This document shows, piece by piece, positions 4,478 to 22,729 of a DNA stretch of 22,729 nucleotides. The stretch lies in NCBI GenBank assembly GCA_021808665.1, contig JAKBBA010000053.1:1-22729 (forward strand), in the 5' to 3' direction. The notes under the pieces were generated by a model. The model ran no database searches and was not told the origin of the DNA. It was given only the letters and a program-made list of their open reading frames with translations. This DNA is from Actinomycetes bacterium. GTDB taxonomy: Bacteria; Actinomycetota; Acidimicrobiia; Acidimicrobiales; Palsa-688. How positions within the stretch are numbered: the first letter of the stretch is position 1; each line of letters begins with the position of its first letter. A program made the translations under genes and the position numbers.

Positions 4478-5128
4478 TCAGGCCGGGAACGGTCCGGCGA
4501 GGACTGGTACCCGGAGTCTCGAAGCCAGCTCGTCTACCGTCGTCCCGAAAGTCTCGGTGACGTACACCTGATCGTCCTCCAGCCGGAACACGGCGAGGTC
4601 AGTGTAGACCCGGCTGACGCAGGCGAGGCCTGTAAGAGGGTAGGTGCACTTGGGGACGAGCTTCGGGGTCCCGTCCTTGTCGAAGAGCGTCATCATCACA
4701 TAGACCGTTTTGGCGCCGACGGCCAGGTCCATGGCCCCCCCAACGGCTGGGATGGCGTCAGGGTCCCCGGTATGCCAGTTGGCGAGGTCCCCGGCGGTGG
4801 ACACCTGGAAGGCGCCCATGACACACACGTCAAGGTGCCCGCCGCGCATCATGGCAAAGGAGTCGGCGTGGTGGAAGTAGGAGGCTCCTGGGAGCTCGGT
4901 GACAGGAAGCTTTCCTGCGTTGGTCAGGTCCGGGTCGATGTCGTCGCCCTGGGCTTGGGGTCCCATGCCGAGCATGCCGTTCTCAGTGTGCAACACCACG
5001 TGCTTATCGGAGGGAAGGTAGTCCGCTACGAGGGTCGGCTGGCCGATGCCAAGGTTCACGTACGAGCCACCTGGAATGTCACGGGCGACGAGCTTCGCCA
5101 TCTCAGTCCTGGTCAAAGGGGCGCTCAC
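4478..5128 (-). CDS. pcaJ: 3-oxoacid (probably 3-oxoadipate) CoA-transferase, subunit B
   Basis: This 216-residue protein is the beta subunit of a family I CoA-transferase, which moves CoA from succinyl-CoA to a 3-oxoacid through a glutamyl-CoA intermediate. The catalytic glutamate is E49 in HTENGMLGMG, matching the conserved (S/T)ENG motif; GIGQPTLVADYLP precedes it. The GTG start overlaps the TGA of the alpha subunit gene by 4 bp (GTGA), so the two are translated together. The neighbouring pobA favours 3-oxoadipate as substrate (PcaJ), but acetoacetate CoA-transferase (ScoB/AtoA) is very similar and cannot be excluded from sequence alone. Confidence 0.85.
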   Translation of the reverse strand: MSAPLTRTEMAKLVARDIPGGSYVNLGIGQPTLVADYLPSDKHVVLHTENGMLGMGPQAQGDDIDPDLTNAGKLPVTELPGASYFHHADSFAMMRGGHLDVCVMGAFQVSTAGDLANWHTGDPDAIPAVGGAMDLAVGAKTVYVMMTLFDKDGTPKLVPKCTYPLTGLACVSRVYTDLAVFRLEDDQVYVTETFGTTVDELASRLRVPVLAGPFPA

Positions 5129-5835
5129 CTCGTGGTCTCCCGCGATCCCGAGCGGGCCGATCCCGCCTTGGCCGTCCCGACGGCGAGCACGACACGGTTC
5201 ACGAAGATGCCCGGCGTCACGACGTTCTCAGGGTCTATAGCCCCAGCGGGCACCACCCGGTTGACCTCGGCGACGGTTACCTTGGCGGCAGTCGCCATGA
5301 TAGGCCCGAAGTTACGGGCGGTCTTACGGTAGGTGAGGTTGCCCGCCTCGTCCGCGGTGTCGGCCCTTATCAAGGCGACGTCGCCGTGGATAGGCAGCTC
5401 AAGGATGTAGTCACAGCCGGCTATGTTTCTGACCTCCTTGCCGGCGGCTAGGGGAGTCCCGACCCCGGTCGGCGTGTAGAAACCGCCTATGCCAGCGCCC
5501 GCCGCCCGGATCCTCTCGGCCAGGTTGCCTTGAGGAACGAGCTCGAGCTCGATCTTGCCCTCCCGGTAGAGGCGGTCGAAGACCCACGAGTCGACCTGGC
5601 GGGGATAGGAGCAGATGATCTTACGGACACGCCCCGTGGCGAGCACCGCGGCGAGGCCGCTGTCGCCGTTGCCGGCGTTGTTGCTGACCACGGTCAGGCC
5701 GGCGGCGTCGCATCGCAGGAGACCGTCCAGAAGACCGAACGGCAGGCCTGCCTCCCCGAAACCCCCGACTAGGACGGTAGCCCCGTCGCGCAGGTCGCGA
5801 AGTGCGGCTTCGGCGTCGCCGCAGACCTCTATCAC
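5125..5835 (-). CDS. pcaI: 3-oxoacid (probably 3-oxoadipate) CoA-transferase, subunit A
   Basis: This 236-residue protein is the alpha subunit of a family I CoA-transferase. The glycine-rich CoA-binding loop is VLVGGFGEAGLPFGL near the N-terminus. GVGTPLAAGKEVRNIAGCDYILELP and DEAGNLTYRKTARNFGP are further family hallmarks. The GTG start at 5835 is preceded by GGAG about 10 bases upstream. It is the first gene of a two-gene unit with subunit B and is divergent from pobA. In the 3-oxoadipate pathway the product is 3-oxoadipyl-CoA. The rest of that pathway (protocatechuate dioxygenase, PcaB, PcaC, PcaD, PcaF) is not in this window. Confidence 0.85.
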   Translation of the reverse strand: MIEVCGDAEAALRDLRDGATVLVGGFGEAGLPFGLLDGLLRCDAAGLTVVSNNAGNGDSGLAAVLATGRVRKIICSYPRQVDSWVFDRLYREGKIELELVPQGNLAERIRAAGAGIGGFYTPTGVGTPLAAGKEVRNIAGCDYILELPIHGDVALIRADTADEAGNLTYRKTARNFGPIMATAAKVTVAEVNRVVPAGAIDPENVVTPGIFVNRVVLAVGTAKAGSARSGSRETTR

Positions 5836-5964
5836 CTACGCGCTCTCCGAGACCGCTGTCGAAGGTTGGGGAGCCAAATTTCTCGTCACGACATTCGGAA
5901 GACTAGACAAGCGGCCGCGAGGACGCCACCCGCAGCGGGCCGGGCCTCGCCGGGCGCAGGGGGT

Positions 5965-5970
5965 TATCAT
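5965..5970 (+). promoter_or_regulatory. -10 box of a likely leaderless pobA promoter
   Basis: TATCAT ends 6 bases before the GTG start of pobA, placing the expected transcription start at or next to the start codon. No matching -35 hexamer is obvious. An alternative is a leadered transcript using AGGGGG at 5958-5963, but that lies 13 bases from the start. Confidence 0.4.
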
Positions 5971-5976
5971 TCGGCT

Positions 5977-7146
5977 GTGCGAACCCAGGTCGCGATCGTC
6001 GGAGCCGGCCCTTCGGGGATGCTGCTATCGCACCTGCTTGAGCGGGAAGGGGTTGAGTCGGTGGTGCTCGAAGCCCGCTCCGAGGATTACGTCGCCTCAC
6101 GCGTCCGCGCTGGTGTGCTGGAAAGCTCCTCGGTGGACCTTCTCCGTCAAGTGGGTCTCGGGGATCGCCTCGACGGGGAAGGGTTGCATCACAGCGGGAT
6201 CCTCTTGCACTGGCCGGGCGAACGTCACCGCATCGACTTCGTCGATCTCGTCGGGCGCGGCGTCTGGGTCTACGGGCAGACCGAAGTCCAAAAGGACCTG
6301 GTAGCGGCCCGGCGGGCGGCCGGCCAGCGGGTCGAGTACGAGGTGTCCGAGACGTCGATCCACGACGTCCACACCGATCGACCCTTCGTGAGCTTTGTCG
6401 ACGCGGGCGGCGTCCCAAGGCGCCTCGAAGCTGGCGTCGTGGTCGGCTGCGACGGCTCTCACGGGCCCTGCCGGACTGCCATCACCGATCGCCGAGCGTG
6501 GGAACGGACTTATCCGTTCGCGTGGCTCGGGGTGCTCGCTGACGTGGCGCCGTCGACTGGCGAGTTGATCTACGCCTGGCACCCAGACGGCTTCGCTCTG
6601 CACTCGATGCGCTCCGAAAGCGTCAGTCGCTTCTACCTGCAAGTCCAACCCGACGAGGACCTCGCCGCCTGGTCTGACAACCGTATCTGGGACTCCCTAG
6701 CCGCAAGGCTCGGCGACGAGCCCGGCGGGTGGCGCCTGAGCACCGGCGCGATCAGGGAGAAGTCCATCCTCCCGATGCGCAGCCACGTGGCAGCCCCCCT
6801 CCGCCAGGGAAGGCTTTTCCTGGCAGGGGACGCCGGGCACGTGGTTCCTCCGACGGGAGCTAAGGGCCTCAACCTCGCTATCGCCGACGTCGCGCTCCTA
6901 GCCCCGGCGCTGTCGGCGATGCTGCGAGACGGGGACAGTTCCCTGGCGGACACCTACTCCGAAAGGGCGCTGCGCCGGGTGTGGCGCTGCACGCAGTTTT
7001 CTTGGTGGATGACTATGATGTTGCACCGCCACGGAGACGACTTCGACGCAGAGCTTCAAATCTCCCAGCTTCGCTGGGTGGCCACTAGCCGGGCCGGGGC
7101 GCAAGGCTTGGCGGAGAACTACGCCGGGCTGCCGCTAGAACTGTGA
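5977..7146 (+). CDS. pobA: 4-hydroxybenzoate 3-monooxygenase
   Basis: This 389-residue FAD-dependent aromatic hydroxylase converts 4-hydroxybenzoate to protocatechuate; characterised PobA is 394 residues. The start VRTQVAIVGAGPSGMLL gives the GxGxxG FAD site. E32 and R44 (in RAGVLE) fall at the same positions as the FAD-contacting residues of the Pseudomonas enzyme. VYGQTEVQKDL, the DG motif (GCDGSHGPCR), SRFYLQVQPDEDL and the GDAGHVVPPTGAKGLNLAIADV motif complete the pattern. I chose the GTG at 5977 because family homology begins exactly there; the open frame reaches back to 5866 but that extension is not family-like. The gene is divergent from pcaIJ, and its 3' end overlaps the convergent MFS gene by 12 bp. 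Confidence 0.9.
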   Translation: MRTQVAIVGAGPSGMLLSHLLEREGVESVVLEARSEDYVASRVRAGVLESSSVDLLRQVGLGDRLDGEGLHHSGILLHWPGERHRIDFVDLVGRGVWVYGQTEVQKDLVAARRAAGQRVEYEVSETSIHDVHTDRPFVSFVDAGGVPRRLEAGVVVGCDGSHGPCRTAITDRRAWERTYPFAWLGVLADVAPSTGELIYAWHPDGFALHSMRSESVSRFYLQVQPDEDLAAWSDNRIWDSLAARLGDEPGGWRLSTGAIREKSILPMRSHVAAPLRQGRLFLAGDAGHVVPPTGAKGLNLAIADVALLAPALSAMLRDGDSSLADTYSERALRRVWRCTQFSWWMTMMLHRHGDDFDAELQISQLRWVATSRAGAQGLAENYAGLPLEL

Positions 7147-14433: not shown

Positions 14434-14871
14434 ATGGAGACTTCCGAATCAGACGCTGCTCTGGAAAGCTTGATTCCCGAAACCTGCTGGGCGCTTCTAG
14501 GCCAAAAGCATCTCGGGCGCATAGCGGTCATCGTCGACGACGAGATTCACGTGCTGCCAGTGAACTACACGCTGCAGCAAGGGCGGGTCATCCTGCGCAC
14601 CGGGTCGCACAGCCTCCTGCGCGAGGCGGCCCCTTGCCATGCGACCCTCGAAGTCGACGACATCGACGAAGCGGAACGGAGAGGTTGGAGCGTGTCAGCC
14701 AAAGGTGCTCTCGAAGAGATCAGCGACGAGGCTCACGACCACCCACAGCTCGCTTCGCTCGATCTCGACACGTGGGCTCCAGGGTCCAAGCCGCTTGTTA
14801 TGCAACTCCGACTGGCAGGAGTGACGGGACGCCACCTGTATCCCACGCCCGGGGTGGACAGCTCCAAGTAG
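14434..14871 (+). CDS. PNPOx-like (pyridoxamine 5'-phosphate oxidase family) protein
   Basis: This 145-residue protein fits the split-barrel flavin-binding family (PF12900/PNPOx-like). The opening CWALLGQKHLGRIAVIVDDE with HVLPVNYTLQQGRVILRTG is the standard first half of these barrels (LxxxxxGRLAxxxDGxPxVxPVNY). EVDDIDEAERRGWSVSAKGALEEI follows, as in members that bind FMN, F420 or heme. The cofactor and substrate are not clear. The ATG at 14434 has no good Shine-Dalgarno sequence; GAAAAT at 14422-14427 ends 6 bases upstream, so it may be leaderless. It lies between thiC and the sulfur-related genes with no sign of co-transcription with either. Confidence 0.82.
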   Translation: METSESDAALESLIPETCWALLGQKHLGRIAVIVDDEIHVLPVNYTLQQGRVILRTGSHSLLREAAPCHATLEVDDIDEAERRGWSVSAKGALEEISDEAHDHPQLASLDLDTWAPGSKPLVMQLRLAGVTGRHLYPTPGVDSSK

Positions 14872-14890
14872 ACAAGCTTGCACAAAGGGC

Positions 14891-14935
14891 TTGACAATCG
14901 CAGCTCTGTCCGCGAATATGAGCATACGCGCATAT
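14891..14935 (+). promoter_or_regulatory. dsrE promoter with overlapping palindromic operator
   Basis: TTGACA (14891-14896), a perfect -35 box, is followed after 17 bp by GAATAT (14914-14919) as a weak -10. Overlapping that -10 is the imperfect palindrome ATATGAGCATACGCGCATAT (14916-14935), with 8 of 10 half-site positions matching. AT-rich palindromes of this kind are used by ArsR-type repressors, a family that controls sulfur-oxidation genes in other bacteria (for example sHdrR, BigR/SqrR). No such regulator gene is in the window, so the link is inferred. The Shine-Dalgarno for dsrE is AGGGGG at 14942-14947. Confidence 0.5.
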
Positions 14936-14955
14936 ACAGCTAGGGGGTTGTAGCG

Positions 14956-15471
14956 GTGCTCGAAGAACCAGCTGTTCCCGCACGGGAGTCCGAGCGTCAG
15001 AAAACCATGGCCGTGGTCTGTTGGAGCTCCGACCTGGACCGGGTTTGGCCGACGTTGATCCTCTCCACGACCGCCGCGGCGTCAGGTCTCGACGTCAGCG
15101 TGTTCTTCACGTTCTGGGGTTTGCGTGTCCTGCAGCGCAACGACAAGCTCGTGACCGGCACGAACTGGATGCAAAAAGCCGAGTCTCTCGTCGACCGGGG
15201 CGGAACCGACCATCTCCGGCTCGGCAAGATCCACTTCGGCGGGGTGGGAACCAAGATGATCAAAAAGCTTGCAGACGACTACAAGGTGGCCAGCCCGACC
15301 GATCTTTTGTCCATGGCCCAGGATCTCGGCGTGAGGCTCTACCCGTGCCAGATGACGATGGACCTTTACGGGCTTACCAAGGACGACTTCATCGACGGGA
15401 TAGAACCCCCGATGGGAGCGGCCAGCTACATCAACATGGCCGCCGACGCTGACATCTCGCTTTTCATCTGA
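14956..15471 (+). CDS. DsrE/DsrF/DsrH-like sulfur-carrier protein (DsrE2-type)
   Basis: This 171-residue protein follows the DrsE_2 pattern closely: SSDLDRVWPTLILSTTAAASG, FFTFWGLRVLQ, KIHFGGVGTKMIKKL, DLLSMAQDLGVRLYPCQMTMDLYGL and a final DADISLFI. C131, in YPCQMTMDLYG, is at the conserved position of the sulfur-binding cysteine; C22 is a second possible thiol. Proteins of this family pass persulfide sulfur between carriers such as rhodanese, TusA and Hdr-like or Dsr enzymes in sulfur oxidisers. The GTG at 14956 has AGGGGG 8 bases upstream; an ATG at 15007 is a possible later start. It is followed 4 bp later by the Rieske fusion gene and faces the lbpA operon. Confidence 0.88.
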   Translation: MLEEPAVPARESERQKTMAVVCWSSDLDRVWPTLILSTTAAASGLDVSVFFTFWGLRVLQRNDKLVTGTNWMQKAESLVDRGGTDHLRLGKIHFGGVGTKMIKKLADDYKVASPTDLLSMAQDLGVRLYPCQMTMDLYGLTKDDFIDGIEPPMGAASYINMAADADISLFI

Positions 15472-15475
15472 CCGG

Positions 15476-16147
15476 GTGCAGCCCGCCGGGCGCCCGCGGG
15501 TGTGGCTGCAAAAAGGCGACCGGTTAGCGCCGACGCTGGGACGGCGCCTTCAAGTCGAAGTCGTCTTGGGGGAGCGTTTGGACGTGAGCTGCGTGGCGGA
15601 GGAGGCGGCCGTGGCGGTCGTCGCGCTCGAAGCCGGCGGGGCTTGCGACTTCGTGTCGGAGCTCAAGGCGGCGAGACCTGACGTTATCGTAGCGGCGCAC
15701 ACCTTTTCCCCGGACCGCAACGTCTGGGAGGAGGCGGAGCGTGCCGGTGCGGACGTCGTAGTCAATAGCGGGGCTTTGGCGAAGACGCTCGCCGCGATGG
15801 TCGCCTCGGCTGGGACGGCAGGGCTTGGTAAGAAGCGGTGGGCGCTTTTCGACGCAGCGGAGATAGCCGGCCGGCTCGGCCTGATCGCAGCGTGCGACGA
15901 CACTCCGATCGGCCCGGTAGCAGTGTTCAACTTGGACTCCAAGCTCGTCGCCGTCGCTGACCGATGCCCTCACGCCGGGGCTCGGCTCTCCGAGGGGGGT
16001 TACGAGTCGGGGGTGGTAACCTGCCCGGCGCACGGCAGCCAGTTCGAAGCTGCGACCGGCGGGCGGGCGCGGGGACCCGCCGACTGCGGCGTGGAAGTGT
16101 TCGACGTCGTGTCCGACGCCGGCCGGGTGTGGCTGCTGTGGGTGTGA
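15476..16147 (+). CDS. Pseudo-receiver / Rieske [2Fe-2S] fusion protein
   Basis: This is a 223-residue protein in two parts. Residues about 120-223 are a Rieske domain: C164-P-H166 and C183-P-A-H186 with the usual G-SQF after it, so both cysteines and both histidines are present. Residues about 7-112 alternate strands and helices like a response-regulator receiver (PDVIVAAHTFSPDRNVWEEAERAGADVVV resembles its second half). However, the phospho-acceptor Asp region reads VAVVALEAGG and the conserved Lys is missing, so it would be a non-phosphorylated pseudo-receiver if the fold is right. The GTG start is 4 bp after dsrE, which makes the two an operon. A ferredoxin-like or redox-sensing role in sulfur transfer is inference. 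Confidence 0.7.
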   Translation: MQPAGRPRVWLQKGDRLAPTLGRRLQVEVVLGERLDVSCVAEEAAVAVVALEAGGACDFVSELKAARPDVIVAAHTFSPDRNVWEEAERAGADVVVNSGALAKTLAAMVASAGTAGLGKKRWALFDAAEIAGRLGLIAACDDTPIGPVAVFNLDSKLVAVADRCPHAGARLSEGGYESGVVTCPAHGSQFEAATGGRARGPADCGVEVFDVVSDAGRVWLLWV

Positions 16148-16151
16148 AAGC

Positions 16152-16619
16152 TCACTCTGCGCAACGGTAGCAGCGGATCCCGTCGCGTTCGATGACCTCA
16201 CGGTAGTGTTCGAAGGCCGCCGACGCGTCAGCCAGCAGCTCTAACTCGGCCGGGTCACTCGGCGCTATGCGGGCGAACCAGCCGGCGCCGTAAGGGTCGC
16301 GGTTTGCTGCGGCGACGTCAGCGTCGAAGGTCGCGTCGTTCGTTTCCAGGACGGTTCCGGTGAGAGGCGACTTGATCGGCCCTACCCACTTGGCACTTTC
16401 GATGACGCACAGGGGCCGACCCCTGCGTAGTTTCGCGCCTGCGTGCTTCCACGACACCTGCACCAGGCGCCCGCATCGTGTCTGGGCTACGTCGGTCATT
16501 CCCACCGTGGCCGAGCCGTCAGCGTCGACGCGGACCCACACGTCGGCGTCGAGGTCGTAGACGAGACCACCCGGCACGTCGCAGCCCGCCCAGACGTTGG
16601 AGGTCACGCCGGGGGTCAT
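16152..16619 (-). CDS. lbpA: Lipoate-binding GcvH-like protein, second copy (LbpA)
   Basis: This 155-residue GcvH-fold protein has its lipoyl lysine at K77 in VIESAKWVGPIKSPLTGTVLETN. The ESxKWVG form of the site, instead of the ES(V)KA of glycine-cleavage GcvH, is the mark of LbpA proteins of sHdr sulfur oxidation. LbpA carries sulfur bound to lipoamide during oxidation to sulfite. The C-terminus ends GIRCYRCAE, giving an extra C-x2-C pair. It starts 7 bp after the stop of the first lbpA and is last in the minus-strand operon; its stop lies 4 bp from that of the convergent Rieske gene. No glycine-cleavage genes (gcvT, gcvP) are nearby. Confidence 0.85.
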   Translation of the reverse strand: MTPGVTSNVWAGCDVPGGLVYDLDADVWVRVDADGSATVGMTDVAQTRCGRLVQVSWKHAGAKLRRGRPLCVIESAKWVGPIKSPLTGTVLETNDATFDADVAAANRDPYGAGWFARIAPSDPAELELLADASAAFEHYREVIERDGIRCYRCAE

Positions 16620-16626
16620 CGCCCGC

Positions 16627-17070
16627 TCAGGCGGTCTCGGCGCAGGTTATGCCCTGCTCGGCGAGGAAAGCCTCGTAGGAGGCGACACCTCGCGCACCGG
16701 TAGCCAGGTCGGCGGAGTCGGCGTCCCAGTCGGCGCAGCGGACCCGGGCCACCCAGCCGGCACCGTAGGGGTCGGAGTTGATCGTCGACGGCGCCGACGC
16801 CAACGCTGTGTTCACCTCGACCACCTCGCCGCTGACGGGGCTGGGCACCGGGCCGACCCATTTGCCGCTTTCGACGGTGGCGAGGCTGCGCCCCTTCTTC
16901 ACTGGCTTGCCCGCGTCGCGCAGAGCCACGGAGATTATCTTCTTCGCCATCGCCTGGGCGACGTCGGTGAGCCCTACTTCTACGACGTCACCGGCCGGCC
17001 GGGCCCAAACGTGCTTGTCGATCAGGTAGAACAGGTCTTCTGGCAGGTTGCAGCCGCTGTCGGTTGTCAT
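16627..17070 (-). CDS. lbpA: Lipoate-binding GcvH-like protein, first copy (LbpA)
   Basis: This 147-residue GcvH-fold protein has the lipoyl-lysine site K70 in TVESGKWVGPVPSPVSGEVVEVN, again the ESGKWVG form of sulfur-oxidation LbpA. YLIDKHVWARPAGDVVEVGLTDVAQAM matches the GcvH N-terminal hairpin, and SDPYGAGWVARV the C-terminal part. The end GITCAETA retains one cysteine where the second copy has two. The ATG overlaps the stop of the finger-protein gene by 4 bp and is preceded by GGAGGAG. The two copies are clearly paralogous but diverged, so they may serve different partners, as LbpA1 and LbpA2 do elsewhere. Confidence 0.88.
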   Translation of the reverse strand: MTTDSGCNLPEDLFYLIDKHVWARPAGDVVEVGLTDVAQAMAKKIISVALRDAGKPVKKGRSLATVESGKWVGPVPSPVSGEVVEVNTALASAPSTINSDPYGAGWVARVRCADWDADSADLATGARGVASYEAFLAEQGITCAETA

Positions 17071-17381
17071 AGCTCCTCCGCTGTGTTGGACGTGGCGGCG
17101 CCGAGGTCGGTGTGCTCGGCGACGATGTGATTGACGAGCATGTCGAACGCTACGAGCCGTATTTCGTTGCGGTACTCCTCAAGAAAGTCAGGAGAGTTGT
17201 AGCGGGGTTTGATCTCCTGCTCGTAACCAGAATCGCACGACGGGCAGGTCACTGCGTAGAAGCTGCGGCTGCCGCGCGTCGGGAAGGCGACCATGTCGGG
17301 GTGCTCCTCGTCGAAATGTTGCTGCAGTGACCGGGAGCTCCCAGCGAAATCGCACCAAGGGCATTGCACCCGAATGCTCAT
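17067..17381 (-). CDS. Small protein with two CxxC...HxxxxH zinc-finger-like modules
   Basis: This 104-residue protein starts MSIRVQCPWCDFAGSSRSLQ. Two modules are visible: C7-x2-C10-x11-H22-x4-H27 and C46-x2-C49-x35-H85-x4-H90. Both have the ligand order of C2H2 fingers, although the second loop is long. There is no signal peptide or membrane segment. The ATG at 17381 overlaps the TGA of the Emo-like gene (ATGA), and its own stop overlaps the lbpA start, so it is translated in series with them. I do not recognise a named family. Zinc-dependent scaffolding or delivery of sulfur to LbpA is possible, but nothing in the sequence proves it. Confidence 0.75.
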   Translation of the reverse strand: MSIRVQCPWCDFAGSSRSLQQHFDEEHPDMVAFPTRGSRSFYAVTCPSCDSGYEQEIKPRYNSPDFLEEYRNEIRLVAFDMLVNHIVAEHTDLGAATSNTAEEL

Positions 17382-19594
17382 GAGGTCTCCGTCTCGCCTG
17401 AGTTGGCCCCGGATGCCATCCCGGCGGTCTCGCGGGCCGTGTCGCGCACGGCGAGAACGTGCGCCTCCTCGACGAGCTGTACGAGGTCCACGACTCGCAT
17501 GGACGTGTCGAGACCGGTGGTTTTCGCGGCGTCGCTGTACATGGCGAAGTCCTTCGGGCAGGCGACGACGAAACGGTCGACGGCCAAGAGTCCCGCTTCT
17601 TTGATCCGCATCTCGCTGGGACGCTCCTCTAGGTGGGAGTCGTCCATCCAGATGCGTCCCCCGCCGGCCCCGCAGCAGAACGTGTTGTCCCTGTTGCGTG
17701 GCATCTCCACCAGTTCGCAGCCGAGCGCTCGGATCACCCTTCGGGGCGCCTCGGTTATACGGTTGTAGCGGCCGAGATAGCACGGGTCGTGGTAGGTGAC
17801 CTTGGTGCCCAACGGTGCTACGGGGATACGGCCGGCGTCTAGAAGGTCGGCGAGCAGCTGGCTGTAGTGGCGCACCCGGACTTCCAACCCGAAGGAGCTG
17901 TACTCGTTGCGCAGAGTGTTGAAAGAGTGCGGGTCGGTGGTGAAGATCTCTTTGAAGCTGGCGTTGCCCATGGCTTGCATGTTCGACTCGACGAGCATTT
18001 CGAACAGGCCTTCTTCTCCTACACGGCGCACGTCGTTTCCGGCGTTGCGTTCCGCTTCGTAGAGCAGGCCGAAGTCGACGTCGGCGTCGTGAAGAAGCCG
18101 CGCCAAGGACTGGGAGAGGCCTTGCATGCGCTCGTCGAAAGAGGCGTGGTCCCCGACGAACCACAAAAGCTCGACAGGCTCCTTGCGGGCGTCTTTGATC
18201 GTGAAGTCGAGCGCTTTGGTCCAGCGCGCCCTCATGCGGGCCGACTTGCCGAACGAGTTGCCTTGGGACGCAACGTTTTGCAGCGCCGCTTGAAGGGTTG
18301 GCTCCAACTTGCCCTGGTCGACGAGGCGGCGTCGCAGGGACACGATTGTAGGAACGTGCTCGATGCCCACCGGGCACGCCTCGACGCACGCCATGCAAGT
18401 GGTGCAAGCCCAAAGGGTCTCCTGGCGGATCACGTCCCCGGCTGGTTCCGCGTCGGGCGGTGCGGCCGGCCCGGTGGTCTCGGAGCGCAGCTCGGTTTCC
18501 AGCAGCGTCGGGATGTGACGCGAAGAGTTGAGCCACTGGCGCAGGTCGAGGATCAGATCCCTCGGCGAAAGCGGACCGCCCGACGTCCTCGCCGGGCACA
18601 CCTCGTGGCACCGCCCGCATTTGGTGCAAGCGTCGAAGTCTAGAAGTTCCTTCCAGGTGAAGTCGGCGGCGCTCGTGTAGCCCGGCTTGCCGTCCGCAAG
18701 GGCGGGAAGCCTGCGCGTCGGACCGGGGTCGGTTGCCACCAGGTCGGCCGCGGAGGTGATCATGTGAACGGCTTTGGAGTAGGGCAGGTAGGCGACGAAA
18801 CCCAGCGCCATCAAAGAGTGCGCCCACCACAGCACCCCGTGAAGGTAGAACGCGACGTCAGGGCTGATTCCTGCGACGGAGAGGGCCTTGGCGACGAACC
18901 ATCCCATCCACGTCCAACCCTCGAAGCTGGGGAAGCCCTCCGAGAGGATCCGCAGCCCTTGGACCAAGAAGCCGGTTACGAGGATGGCCATCAGAAGGTC
19001 GACGAAGAGCATATCCCCGGCGACGAGCTTCGCTCTCGAGTAGCCGCCGTCCTTCACGTCGACGCGCGTGTAGTCCAACTGAGGCTCGCTTCGCTGGTGC
19101 CTTCTCACCAAAAGCACAGCGAGGCCTCCGATCGCAGCGACACCGGCCGCGTTGAAAACGAGGTTGAAACCCTCGTAGAACCATCCGGTTAGGAAGGTCT
19201 TCTCGTGGCCTTGCAAAGCGCCGGTGATGATGTGGCCATAGATGTCGTAGTCGACACCGACGATCGTCGTCGCGGCGAGCAGTCCGAGGAAACCCCAAAA
19301 CAGCGCCAGGTGCGCCCAACCGACCAGAGGCTTGCGCCGCCGCACCGTCCGGTTGGTGAGGACCGCGCCCGCAGCGGACGCGAAGCTCGGCCTTGCCGTG
19401 ACGCCTTTCACCCCGGAACCCGGACCGCGAAGCCACGGTCGGTCGAGGGCCCGGCCCTGGCGGTATTTAACGACCCGGCGTGCCATGCCGTAGAAGAAGA
19501 CGGCTATGGCGATCACGGCGAGCGAGTAGAAGACGGCTATCTGGGCCGACCCCATGCCGCCGAGGATGTGACGGGTGACGACTAGTGCTAGCAC
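17378..19594 (-). CDS. emo: Membrane Fe-S oxidoreductase, Emo-like (ETF:menaquinone oxidoreductase)
   Basis: This 738-residue protein has a membrane part (about residues 15-275, five or six segments, with H95, H121, H252 and H259 as possible heme ligands) resembling NarI-type cytochrome b subunits. Two [4Fe-4S] ferredoxin motifs follow: C323/C326/C329/C333 and C397/C400/C403/C407. A CCG domain like HdrB/GlpC comes last: C605 in YHDPCYLGR, C640-C641 in FCCGAGGG, C679. This order is that of HdrDE-like fusions and of Emo proteins, which accept electrons from EtfAB and reduce menaquinone. The gene lies 9 bp after etfA and overlaps the next gene. GTG 19594 has no Shine-Dalgarno; ATG 19555 is an alternative start. 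Confidence 0.83.
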   Translation of the reverse strand: MLALVVTRHILGGMGSAQIAVFYSLAVIAIAVFFYGMARRVVKYRQGRALDRPWLRGPGSGVKGVTARPSFASAAGAVLTNRTVRRRKPLVGWAHLALFWGFLGLLAATTIVGVDYDIYGHIITGALQGHEKTFLTGWFYEGFNLVFNAAGVAAIGGLAVLLVRRHQRSEPQLDYTRVDVKDGGYSRAKLVAGDMLFVDLLMAILVTGFLVQGLRILSEGFPSFEGWTWMGWFVAKALSVAGISPDVAFYLHGVLWWAHSLMALGFVAYLPYSKAVHMITSAADLVATDPGPTRRLPALADGKPGYTSAADFTWKELLDFDACTKCGRCHEVCPARTSGGPLSPRDLILDLRQWLNSSRHIPTLLETELRSETTGPAAPPDAEPAGDVIRQETLWACTTCMACVEACPVGIEHVPTIVSLRRRLVDQGKLEPTLQAALQNVASQGNSFGKSARMRARWTKALDFTIKDARKEPVELLWFVGDHASFDERMQGLSQSLARLLHDADVDFGLLYEAERNAGNDVRRVGEEGLFEMLVESNMQAMGNASFKEIFTTDPHSFNTLRNEYSSFGLEVRVRHYSQLLADLLDAGRIPVAPLGTKVTYHDPCYLGRYNRITEAPRRVIRALGCELVEMPRNRDNTFCCGAGGGRIWMDDSHLEERPSEMRIKEAGLLAVDRFVVACPKDFAMYSDAAKTTGLDTSMRVVDLVQLVEEAHVLAVRDTARETAGMASGANSGETETS

Positions 19595-19603
19595 TGGGTC
19601 GTG

Positions 19604-20563
19604 TCAGTCGCCTAGACGCTCGGCGAGCTCGGGTAGGAGGTCGAACAGGTCTACGGTTGTCCCGTAGTGAGCCACGTCGAAGATCGGTGCGCTCGGGTCG
19701 GTGTTGCAGGCGATGATCAGCTCGGAGTTCCGCATGCCCTCCAGGTGCTCGGGCGCCCCGGAGATACCGAAAGCCAGGTAAGCCTTCGGCTTGACCTTCT
19801 TGCCCGACTTGCCGACCTGGTGGGGTTTCGGCAGCCAACCCTGGTCTATCACGGGTCTGGAAGCCGACAGGGGAACACCGAGGGCGTCGGCTACCTCCTG
19901 GGCGAGCTCGAGGTTGTCTTGGCCTGCGATACCCCTACCCACCGACACCAGCATCGGGGCGGCGGTTATGTCGACCCCTCCGCCGTCGGGAACGCGGCGC
20001 TCCTTGAAAGCGCTTTTCAGCGAGCCGAGCACGCCAGGGTCTATCTCCTCGCGCGCCGGGGAGCCGGCTCTCCTACCAGCGTCGGATGGGAGCAGCCCGC
20101 CGATGTGGGTGACCACGACCCGTGGTGCTGTCACGCGTAGATCGGCGAGAAGCTTCCCCGCGTAGATCTGCGAGGTGGCGAGAAGCTGGTCCCCGTCGGC
20201 TCTCAAGGCGACCACGTACGACAGCGGCGCAGCGTGCCAGCGCGCAGCGAGCGAAGAGCCCAAGTCCATGCCCACCGTGGACGTGCCGATCAGAACCAGC
20301 CGGGCGTCGACGCTCTCGACGACGTTAAGCAAAAGAGCCTCCCACGCTTCGGGGCAGTAGCCGCCGAGCTCGGCGCCCGCTGCGAAGCGGACCACGTCGG
20401 CTGCTCCTAACTCGCCGGCCAGTTCCGGTTCGCCGAACAGGGCGGCCACGAGCCGGCCGCCCCACGCGTCGGCGAGCTCCCGGCCTTTTCCCAAAAGTTC
20501 GAACGTGGTGTCCGAGACGACACCACCGTCGTGCTCGACTACCACCACAACGTCATTTCCCAT
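19604..20563 (-). CDS. etfA: Electron transfer flavoprotein, alpha subunit
   Basis: This 319-residue protein shows a complete C-terminal FAD domain: VSVGRGIAG, LGVPLSASRPVIDQGWLP, HQVGKSGKKVKPKAYLAFGISGAPEHLEGM and ACNTDPSAPIFDVAHYG. These correspond to the ETF-alpha signature (SRxxVDxGxxP, QVGxTGxxVxP, GISGAxxH, AxNxDxxAPIF). The residue after QVG is Lys and the next Ser, rather than the usual Gln-Thr. The ATG at 20563 has a strong GGAAGGAGG about 7 bases upstream. It pairs with EtfB encoded just before, and the Emo-like gene follows by 9 bp. In this context its likely electron donor is an Hdr-like complex, not acyl-CoA dehydrogenases. Confidence 0.93.
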   Translation of the reverse strand: MGNDVVVVVEHDGGVVSDTTFELLGKGRELADAWGGRLVAALFGEPELAGELGAADVVRFAAGAELGGYCPEAWEALLLNVVESVDARLVLIGTSTVGMDLGSSLAARWHAAPLSYVVALRADGDQLLATSQIYAGKLLADLRVTAPRVVVTHIGGLLPSDAGRRAGSPAREEIDPGVLGSLKSAFKERRVPDGGGVDITAAPMLVSVGRGIAGQDNLELAQEVADALGVPLSASRPVIDQGWLPKPHQVGKSGKKVKPKAYLAFGISGAPEHLEGMRNSELIIACNTDPSAPIFDVAHYGTTVDLFDLLPELAERLGD

Positions 20564-20629
20564 TGGGGATCCTCCTTCCCGGACCGGTAACGGTCGACGT
20601 TCGCTGACTGCGGGACTCGCCGGGCGGTG

Positions 20630-21415
20630 TCACAGCTTGACCAGCCCTTTGGAGGCGAGGATCTCCACGATCCGCTCGGCAACGGCCGGAGCGTCACCCG
20701 AGATCATCTCCGCTCGTCCCGCTTTCTCCGGAGGGTACAGCCGCAAAAGCTCGATGCCGTCGGCCGGGCCGGTGGCCTCGCCGGGCGCTTCTACGCTTTC
20801 CAGGCCGCCGGCGGACATCGCCTGGCGTATGCGGCTGATCGGCGCGTAGCGGGGAGCCTGCCGGGCGGTTTGCATGCCGAGAACGCAAGGGGTGGCGATC
20901 TCGGTTCTCACCACGGTACCCCCGGCCAGCTCCTGGGTGACGGTCACAGACCCCGAGCCGGGCTCCACTCCCACGACGACCGACGCGTGCGGCACGCCGA
21001 GAAGGCCGCCGAGCGTCCCGGCCAGTTGGCCGTCGAGATCGTCGGAGGCCTGCACACCTGTTATCACCATGTCGTAGGACTGTCCTGACAGCCACTGCGC
21101 CAGGAGCCGAGAGCGCTCAGCGGTGCTCAGCCAGCCGTCGCCAGCGCCGGTCAGTTTGACCGCTTCGTCGGCCCCCCGAGCCAGCGCCGTGTAGAGCGTC
21201 TGGTCCACGTCGGGCTCGTCGAAAGCGACGACGCTCACCTGGGCTCCGACGGCTTCTTTGATCAGCAGAGCCTCTTCTAAGGCCTGCTCGTCCCATTCGT
21301 TGGCGACGAACTTGACGAACTCGCGGTCTATGTCGGAGCCTTCCGAGTTGAGCTCCAGTTCTTCTACGAGGTCCGGTACCTGCTTGACCGGTACGACAAT
21401 TCTCATGGCTATCAC
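20630..21415 (-). CDS. etfB: Electron transfer flavoprotein, beta subunit
   Basis: This 261-residue protein begins with the standard ETF-beta strand MRIVVPVKQVPD. The AMP/FAD site is visible as TGVQASDDLDGQLAGTLGGLLGVP, and PRYAPISRIRQAM matches the conserved PRY(P)S motif. The GTG at 21415 lies 3 bases after AGGAAGG; the ATG at 21406, where family homology begins, is the alternative start. It is 66 bp from etfA, with no promoter-like signal in the gap. Whether the heterodimer is of the bifurcating type cannot be decided here: the extra FAD-site residues would need structural comparison. Confidence 0.93.
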   Translation of the reverse strand: MIAMRIVVPVKQVPDLVEELELNSEGSDIDREFVKFVANEWDEQALEEALLIKEAVGAQVSVVAFDEPDVDQTLYTALARGADEAVKLTGAGDGWLSTAERSRLLAQWLSGQSYDMVITGVQASDDLDGQLAGTLGGLLGVPHASVVVGVEPGSGSVTVTQELAGGTVVRTEIATPCVLGMQTARQAPRYAPISRIRQAMSAGGLESVEAPGEATGPADGIELLRLYPPEKAGRAEMISGDAPAVAERIVEILASKGLVKL

Positions 21416-21460
21416 AAACCTTCCTGACGTTGCGTGCCCGAATACTTTCTGGCCCCGGGC

Positions 21461-22699
21461 CTACCGGGGGAACATGGCGGCGTCTACCAACTCGACGATG
21501 TCGAGGACCTTCAGGTGCTCGTTGCCGGTGGACTTGGCGGCGTCCTCGAAGCGTGACACCTCGTAAGGGCAGCAAACGGCGAGGATGTCAGCACCGGTCT
21601 CGGCCGCTTCTTTGACCCGGCGCTCCGACAGGCGCTCGGTGACCCGGTCCGAGTTGAAACCGTCGAGCCACATGCCCCCGCCGCCACCCCCGCAGCAGTA
21701 GCCGTTCTCCCTGCAGCGGCTCATTTCTACGAGCTCGACGCCGGGGATGGCGGCGAGCAGGCGTCTCGGGGCGTCGTACTCGCCGTTGTGGCGACCGAGG
21801 TAGCACGGGTCGTGGAAGGTCACTTTCGCCTCGACGGACCCGGCCCACTCCGCCTGATATATCAGAGGGGCAAGGAGCTGCGTGTAGTGCAGCACGTCGA
21901 AGTTGTGCCCGTAGGTCGGGTACACCTTGCGTAGCGCGTTGAAGCCGTGGGGGTCCGGTGTTACGATCCTGTTGAAGCTGTACTTGCCCAGGGTGGCTAC
22001 GACGTCTTCCATCAACGCTTCGAACAGCCCTTTCTCGCCGGCCGTGCGCTGGCTGTCACCGAGGGTCTTCTCCTCGGCCCCCAGGATCGCCCAGTCCACT
22101 CCGAGGGCGTCTGCTATGCGCGCGAACGCCTGAGCCGCCTGCTGGCCTCTCGGATGGTAGGACCAGTAGTCCTCGACGTAGAAGAGCACGTCGACGGGTC
22201 GGGGATCCGACGCGAGAACCCGGACCGGCACTCCCGCGCCTTTCGTCCAAGCGTGGCGGCGCCTCGGGTTCTCCCCCAGGCAGTTACCCTGGCGGAAGGT
22301 CTTCTCGAACACATCTTGAAGTTCGGGAGGCATGATCCCGTCGGTGACGGCGGCTTCGCGAGCGGCGGGCATGATCTGGATCATGTCCACCTCTTTTGGG
22401 CACACACGTAGGCAGTTTCCGCAGGTGGTGCACATCCAAAGGTCCGCGTCGCCGAGCAAGTTGACGCCGGTCTGGGCTTTGCGGTGCAACTTGCGCGGCC
22501 CGTACTCGCCGACCAGGTCCACCGGGCAGACGGGCACGCACTTGCCGCATCCGTAGCACCATTCGATCGACTCCCCGCCGGGCAGGGAGGATATCCGCGC
22601 CAGCTCCGACGTCGTGTAGCCGCTCAGGACGCGGCTTTCGAACATGCGGTTCCACATGCCGGGAAGTTCCCACTCGCGGCCCGACAGCGAGGAGGTCAC
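21461..22699 (-). CDS. Ferredoxin/CCG-domain Hdr-like protein (sHdrB3-like)
   Basis: This 412-residue soluble protein combines an HdrC-like ferredoxin part (C48/C51/C54/C58 and C90/C93/C96/C100) with an HdrB-like CCG domain (C299 in FHDPCYLGR, C335-C336 in YCCGGGGGG, C376-C377 in AVCCPYE). The closest gene sets I know are type II sHdr clusters, where an HdrB3 protein precedes etfAB and emo. It may hold a noncubane [4Fe-4S] centre at the CCG cysteines. The frame stays open from the GTG at 22699 to the right edge (10 more codons), so the true start may lie outside the window. It shares long stretches with the Emo-like protein, so the two are paralogous. Confidence 0.8.
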   Translation of the reverse strand: MTSSLSGREWELPGMWNRMFESRVLSGYTTSELARISSLPGGESIEWCYGCGKCVPVCPVDLVGEYGPRKLHRKAQTGVNLLGDADLWMCTTCGNCLRVCPKEVDMIQIMPAAREAAVTDGIMPPELQDVFEKTFRQGNCLGENPRRRHAWTKGAGVPVRVLASDPRPVDVLFYVEDYWSYHPRGQQAAQAFARIADALGVDWAILGAEEKTLGDSQRTAGEKGLFEALMEDVVATLGKYSFNRIVTPDPHGFNALRKVYPTYGHNFDVLHYTQLLAPLIYQAEWAGSVEAKVTFHDPCYLGRHNGEYDAPRRLLAAIPGVELVEMSRCRENGYCCGGGGGGMWLDGFNSDRVTERLSERRVKEAAETGADILAVCCPYEVSRFEDAAKSTGNEHLKVLDIVELVDAAMFPR

Positions 22700-22729
22700 C
22701 GTCGCCTGCTCCAGTTCGGTAGCGACTGG

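Follow-up and report, generated by a model that had tools for sequence, protein, structure and literature searches.

Downstream half of a probable sulfur-oxidation locus of the type II sHdr-LbpA kind in a likely member of the Acidimicrobiales

What metabolism is served by a gene block in which electron-transfer flavoprotein genes stand beside two GcvH-like lipoyl proteins and a DsrE-type sulfur carrier? Such a compact block fills the right third of a 22,729-nucleotide stretch of contig JAKBBA010000053.1 from an Actinomycetes bacterium; we call this whole stretch the window. A first-pass annotation, made from the sequence alone, had taken the block for the Etf/Emo half of a type II sHdr cluster, and both the window genes and their continuation in a relative bear this out. 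It is highly probable, in our view, that these genes are the downstream half of an sHdr-LbpA locus of type II (Group III) for the cytoplasmic oxidation of sulfane sulfur to sulfite, with transfer of the electrons to the respiratory chain. Gene content, gene order, domain make-up, hallmark residues, the separation of LbpA from GcvH in a phylogenetic tree and the near-identical continuation are the observed basis of this assignment. The host is probably an actinobacterium of the Acidimicrobiales: two window proteins have their closest named homologues (76% and 86-87%) in that order, and both LbpA group with those of Ferrithrix.

The genes for sHdrB3, EtfB, EtfA, Emo, a small zinc-ligand protein, LbpA_x and LbpA_y all lie on the minus strand and read leftwards from the window edge. 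The first of these ORFs (21461..22729, -) combines a CCG domain with two CxxCxxCxxxC motifs in a single frame. It had been called an HdrB-like CCG protein; the CCG domain is indeed there, but the protein is an HdrC-HdrB fusion, not a plain HdrB. This fusion of sHdrC2 and sHdrB2 into sHdrB3 is a type II trait. Judged from its homologue in the nearest relative (98% identity), the window copy lacks about 9 N-terminal residues, cut off by the window edge. EtfB (20630..21415, -) matches the ETF family (E-value = 3.1e-23), its true start being perhaps an ATG three codons inside the frame, and EtfA (19604..20563, -) matches ETF_alpha (E-value = 3.5e-30) as well as ETF. The 738-aa protein that follows (17378..19594, -) has about four N-terminal transmembrane-like segments, two 4Fe-4S motifs and one CCG domain; the name Emo was given from this architecture and from its place in the cluster. 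The profile scan thus recovered the whole set that had been noticed in the region (DsrE, two LbpA, the Emo-like protein, etfA, etfB and the CCG protein).

The remaining Hdr genes had been expected beyond the right edge, and this is where the nearest relative has them. Genome G001 (Actinomycetes bacterium MAS3.bin85) matches the window at 99% identity across positions 16000-20050 and at 97% across 20186-22729; the matching DNA is split between two of its contigs, with the break inside etfA. Its contig C37 (locus L007) exhibits the gene order sLpl, ArsR, TusA, DsrE, C1, B1, A, H, B3, EtfB and the start of EtfA, with the divergent ArsR gene adjoining the cluster. The hidden Markov model check suggested for the sHdr subunits succeeded for C1, B1 and A, which match HdrC, HdrB and HdrA models, and not for H, which had no family match in the profile scan and is named sHdrH from its place between A and B3. 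The A protein aligns over its whole length (residues 4-348) with residues 2-343 of 6tjr (E-value = 4.5e-89), which we take to be the sHdrA of Hyphomicrobium denitrificans, and matches archaeal HdrA in part only; it is therefore an sHdrA of the short type found in sHdr systems. TusA and a lipoate ligase of the sLpl type near the cluster (255-1409 of L007; LplA-B_cat, E-value = 1.6e-31) had also been anticipated and are present in L007, whereas the LipS type, named as another option, was not found in the three nearest relatives (G001-G003). The available text of PMC11582611 defines type II sHdr by shdrC1B1AHB3 and etfAB in one cluster; B3, EtfB and EtfA are in the window, and C1, B1, A and H come from L007, H by position only. 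Since G001 holds two other EtfA genes and a second Emo-like protein (contig C131), it is plausible that the Etf/Emo pair of the window is dedicated to sulfur.

LbpA_x (16627..17070, -; GCV_H, E-value = 1.6e-34) and LbpA_y (16152..16619, -; GCV_H, E-value = 4.6e-29) carry the lipoyl sites ESGKWVG and ESAKWVG, respectively. In a tree of 66 rows, all 12 GcvH taken from relatives fall into a single clade (support 100/99), and the window proteins fall in two other clades, x and y, where they group with the LbpA of Ferrithrix; both clades reach into Chloroflexota. The comparison with GcvH that had been proposed to challenge the sulfur reading thus leaves it standing. The hallmark of LbpA is a pair of conserved cysteines, one close to each terminus, which are lacking in GcvH (PMC6067878, available text). 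In the window these are Cys7 and a single C-terminal Cys143 in LbpA_x, and Cys13 and a C-terminal CxxC (150/153) in LbpA_y. Among actinobacterial loci, the N-terminal cysteine is present in 34/34 LbpA_x and 24/24 LbpA_y; a single C-terminal cysteine is found in 31/32 LbpA_x, and LbpA_y exhibits a C-terminal cysteine in 20/21 and the CxxC in 19/21, the three C-terminal misses being frames that end at the edge of the fetched DNA. The corresponding counts for GcvH are 3/29 in the N-terminal stretch and 1/31 in the last 16 residues. The residue before the conserved tryptophan is glutamate in all 29 GcvH, presumably the aminomethyl-binding one, and valine in 34/34 LbpA_x and 20/24 LbpA_y, including both window proteins. 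A true GcvH (ESTKSVS) is encoded elsewhere in G001, on contig C242.

On the model of the homologous Hyphomicrobium system, persulfide sulfur would be delivered by TusA and the DsrE proteins and then bound and oxidised by the sHdrC1-B1-A-H-B3 complex. The two lipoylated LbpA would serve this complex as swinging, Cys-bearing carriers, EtfAB would take up the electrons, and Emo would hand them to menaquinone. The ArsR gene beside the cluster is a possible sulfur-responsive regulator. The locus shares shdrC1B1AH, fused shdrB3, etfBA, two or three lbpA, dsrE and tusA with the Group III/type II clusters in the available texts of PMC6067878 and PMC11582611, and its gene order is that of Ferrithrix (L024). 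With the type I system of H. denitrificans it has in common sHdrA (6tjr, over the whole length), C1, B1, two-Cys LbpA and a lipoate ligase of its own. Type I is defined by separate hdrC2 and hdrB2 without etfAB, and in H. denitrificans sox genes are adjacent (PMC11582611, available text); in contrast, B3 is fused and accompanied by etfAB here, and SoxY was not found in the actinobacterial genomes searched.

Several points weigh against this assignment. The C1, B1, A and H genes right of 22729 are known from G001, not from the window's own contig. Published accounts, as far as available, contain sHdr experiments mainly from Hyphomicrobium, and we found none from an actinobacterium in them. In the tree, an ESGKWVG protein of Alicyclobacillus (L066) sits beside GcvH. 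The supply of lipoate is also at issue. LipS1 and LipS2, enzymes that usually serve lipoate assembly, occur in 74.3% of bacteria with sHdr (PMC10332631, available text), and LipS1 was found in 25 of the 36 genomes with the cluster; in departure from other type II clusters, neither was found in the window's nearest relatives, G001-G003, with estimated completeness of about 90% for G001 and 77% for G002 and G003. LipS1 was not found in Ferrithrix either. The LipS2 search covered 17 genomes and gave strong matches in five (E-value <= 3.2e-48, all under the family cut-off), none of them in G001-G003; Ferrithrix gave no more than a weak radical-SAM match. LipA scored above cut-off in 34 of 39 genome entries searched; no such match was obtained in G001, while one is present in G002, which belongs to the same genus, and G003 has a partial LipA. 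As LipS1 and LipS2 were not found in G001, nor LipA above cut-off, the lipoylation of its LbpA is not fully accounted for. Finally, SoxY was not found in any of 29 distinct actinobacterial genomes searched (30 entries, G003 and L008 being the same genome; the set includes G002, in which no cluster was found), and it is present in 2 of 9 non-actinobacterial genomes. Sox-type thiosulfate oxidation is therefore an unlikely sulfur source, and growth on thiosulfate, proposed earlier as a test, becomes a doubtful one; the electrons are more likely to come from sulfide, elemental sulfur, polythionates or thiols than from thiosulfate oxidised by Sox.

The SoxY result also fits a different role, in which the sHdr-like cluster would have organic thiols or disulfides as substrates, or would serve redox maintenance in starving cells, instead of a sulfur-oxidising energy pathway. 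The hosts include Amycolatopsis and Gordonia, presumably heterotrophs. A homologous 19-gene cluster of the chloroflexotan Thermomicrobium roseum shares hdrABC, etfAB, tusA, two dsrE and three lbpA with the present locus; unlike here, its expression is known (45-fold up on average, in persistence), thiol oxidation has been proposed for it, and the word "Rieske" is absent from the available text (PMC6776052). However, TusA and two DsrE-type carriers lie within the actinobacterial cluster, and both its sHdrA and the hallmark residues of its LbpA agree with those of the system proven to oxidise sulfur. The hosts also include Ferrithrix, Aciditerrimonas and Alicyclobacillus, which we take to be acidophiles of iron- or sulfide-rich places. 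We regard the thiol or starvation role as rather doubtful, and prefer sulfur oxidation.

DsrE2 and a Rieske protein are encoded on the plus strand of the window, convergent to the sHdr genes. DsrE2 (14956..15471, +; 171 aa; Pfam DrsE_2, E-value = 1.1e-44) has Cys22 and Cys131 and no transmembrane-like segment by hydropathy. Its nearest solved chain is 3pnx, and it scores 97 of 210 bits, under cut-off, against the NCBIfam DsrE2 model. The adjacent ORF (15476..16147, +; 223 aa) had been overlooked by the first-pass annotation, together with the 104-aa zinc-ligand protein (17067..17381, -). Its C-terminal domain exhibits the Rieske [2Fe-2S] ferredoxin fold with CxH/CxxH ligands, as do the ferredoxins of dioxygenase systems (e.g. 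naphthalene dioxygenase, carbazole dioxygenase CarAc); in contrast to those, it is fused to a preceding receiver-like domain in which the receiver lysine is missing, and no oxygenase occurs among the scanned cluster proteins. In the receiver columns, which we assigned from the CheY pattern, column 50 (the phospho-acceptor aspartate) is D in 92/109 sequences and A in the window, and the lysine column is N in 106/109. With neither the conserved lysine nor, in the window, the phospho-acceptor, this domain appears to be a pseudo-receiver.

Could the DsrE2 and pseudo-receiver/Rieske pair (14956-16147) be an unrelated neighbour outside the sHdr system? It stands on the opposite strand, convergent with lbpA, in the window and in L008. 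The fusion was not found in G048, G052, G061, G062 and G079 (in G052, the contig of L022 stops inside Emo), and lies 16.5-18 kb from DsrE2 in G066, G076 and G056. Moreover, G106 has B3 without the fusion, and G283 has the fusion with no B3 found. Yet the fusion tracks the cluster: it is present in 26/31 actinobacterial genomes with the cluster against 0/9 other genomes, and 23/27 copies lie at most 300 b from DsrE2. Among 396 genomes of the phylum (up to seven candidates scored per genome; G001 and G082, to which L029 belongs, are shared with the 40-genome set), four have the fusion over both domains, and three of these hold sHdrB3 at >=77% identity (Fisher p = 1.6e-6, kinship uncorrected). 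It is thus unlikely that the pair is a bystander to the sHdr system. The two genes of the pair apparently move together, since the pair is inverted in the window (16152-16619 versus 15476-16147) and in L008 relative to Ferrithrix and others. A bin with two copies of the pair was also observed (G078, the genome of L041, contigs C4 and C56).

The block might, lastly, be an EtfAB/EtfD-type fatty-acid oxidation branch with lipoyl proteins of glycine cleavage as chance neighbours, given that the mycobacterial EtfBA/EtfD arrangement likewise consists of EtfAB plus a membrane CCG protein and that the LbpA match GCV_H models, LbpA_x even scoring above the cut-off of one GcvH subfamily model; but this is extremely improbable, as the first-pass annotation had also argued, for no acyl-CoA dehydrogenase, GcvT or GcvP is among the family matches listed for the scanned window and L007 proteins, the window LbpA lie outside the GcvH clade with valine, not glutamate, before the tryptophan, and G001 has its separate GcvH and further EtfA copies elsewhere.

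Some of the organisms with such clusters keep two LbpA. The 2018 eLife paper, in its available text, reports no conserved cysteine difference between LbpA1 and LbpA2 and leaves the reason for having two unexplained (PMC6067878). The split between one C-terminal cysteine in x and CxxC in y is a usable lead. It is conserved across the Actinobacteria examined and partly beyond, touches directly on that question, and is testable by point changes. Outside Actinobacteria the pattern is looser (CxxC in 5/7 y, one cysteine in 10/15 x), and two non-actinobacterial ESGKWVG proteins are placed in the y clade, against a clean x/y division. An exception to the CxxC was seen in Alicyclobacillus tolerans (L066, 15666-16160), where a y-clade protein with ESGKWVG has a longer tail and no cysteine in its last 16 residues.

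A third LbpA, z (EAxKFVG), occurs in 40/79 loci, 37 of them actinobacterial, and has neither hallmark cysteine in the actinobacterial loci (0/36 N-terminal, 0/36 C-terminal). The DNA fetched for 38 of the 40 z loci also contains LipS1 or LipS2, that of the other two (L027, L038) stopping just behind z. In the 35 actinobacterial z loci with LipS1, this gene begins 158-383 b past the lipoyl site of z. Five non-actinobacterial loci have LipS without the EAxKFVG motif. Protein z may be a relay in lipoate assembly rather than a sulfur carrier. In loci with a lip operon, z stands just before LipS1 (e.g. L025:12116, L045:12312).

The zinc-ligand protein exhibits two sets of CxxC and HxxxxH, and these eight candidate ligands are invariant in 24 sequences. 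It scores 27.0 bits against zf-Di19, just under the cut-off of 27.5, and no fold match to a solved structure was obtained at E-value <= 0.001. Its gene follows Emo in 28/31 actinobacterial loci with enough DNA and in 9/17 non-actinobacterial loci, one of the latter by a weak match (L067, E-value = 4e-4). ATGA overlaps join Emo with the zinc-ligand gene and the latter with LbpA_x, and the three are therefore probably translated together. The receiver/Rieske protein and the zinc-site protein are both candidates to fill gaps in the route of electrons or sulfur. One possible, quite tentative scheme would unite these elements: the receiver/Rieske ferredoxin would dock on DsrE2 and move single electrons during sulfur loading, the zinc-site protein would be translationally coupled to Emo and LbpA, LbpA_x with its one cysteine would carry the persulfide, LbpA_y would release it or pass electrons as a dithiol through its CxxC, and the Cys-less LbpA beside LipS1/S2 would relay lipoate assembly. 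In the open-access literature searched we found no account of the pseudo-receiver/Rieske partner of DsrE2, of the zinc-site protein or of the one-Cys/CxxC split; by word count, "Rieske" is absent from the available texts of PMC6067878 and PMC11582611, which also leave the zinc-site protein unnamed.

A scan with the sHdrB3 fusion protein retrieved at least 79 loci. By record titles, 55 of the 79 listed are actinobacterial (Ferrithrix, Aciditerrimonas, Amycolatopsis, Gordonia, Conexibacter and many bins), and the 24 others include Myxococcota, Chloroflexota, KSB1, Rokuibacteriota, Planctomycetota and Alicyclobacillus. The seven-gene core (C1, B1, A, H, B3, EtfB, EtfA) lies on one strand in 53/79; in L008, L012, L021, L028 and L074, among the 26 without the full core, the absent genes fall past the end of the fetched DNA. 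The gene arrangement is thus not a matter of chance. The window locus is a clear actinobacterial example of this sulfur-oxidation machine. The extension of the pathway's range that the first-pass annotation foresaw is not supported: an arrangement of hdr-like genes, etfBA and two to three lbpA was already assigned in 2018, as Group III, to "Actinobacteria and Firmicutes" (PMC6067878, available text), and the cluster is present in Ferrithrix (L024) and Aciditerrimonas (L068), both cultured members of the Acidimicrobiaceae. The locus is an ordinary type II sHdr-LbpA cluster, and given the 2018 statement its taxonomic novelty is small.

A locus titled as a Bacteroidota bin (L059) also has a type II cluster, with a fusion protein of 61% identity, perhaps by a real transfer or through a binning error. 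A conserved Cys-rich small protein divergent from TusA was noticed at L025:5078-5521 (-) and L050:4930-5403 (-); its ORF cluster spans 34 loci and is maybe mixed with antisense frames. To the left of the block, the window contains a pyridoxamine-phosphate-oxidase-like gene at 14434, preceded by thiC. Farther left, at 4478-5835 and 5866-7146, 3-oxoacid CoA-transferase subunits lie beside a 4-hydroxybenzoate 3-monooxygenase, a piece of aromatic degradation.

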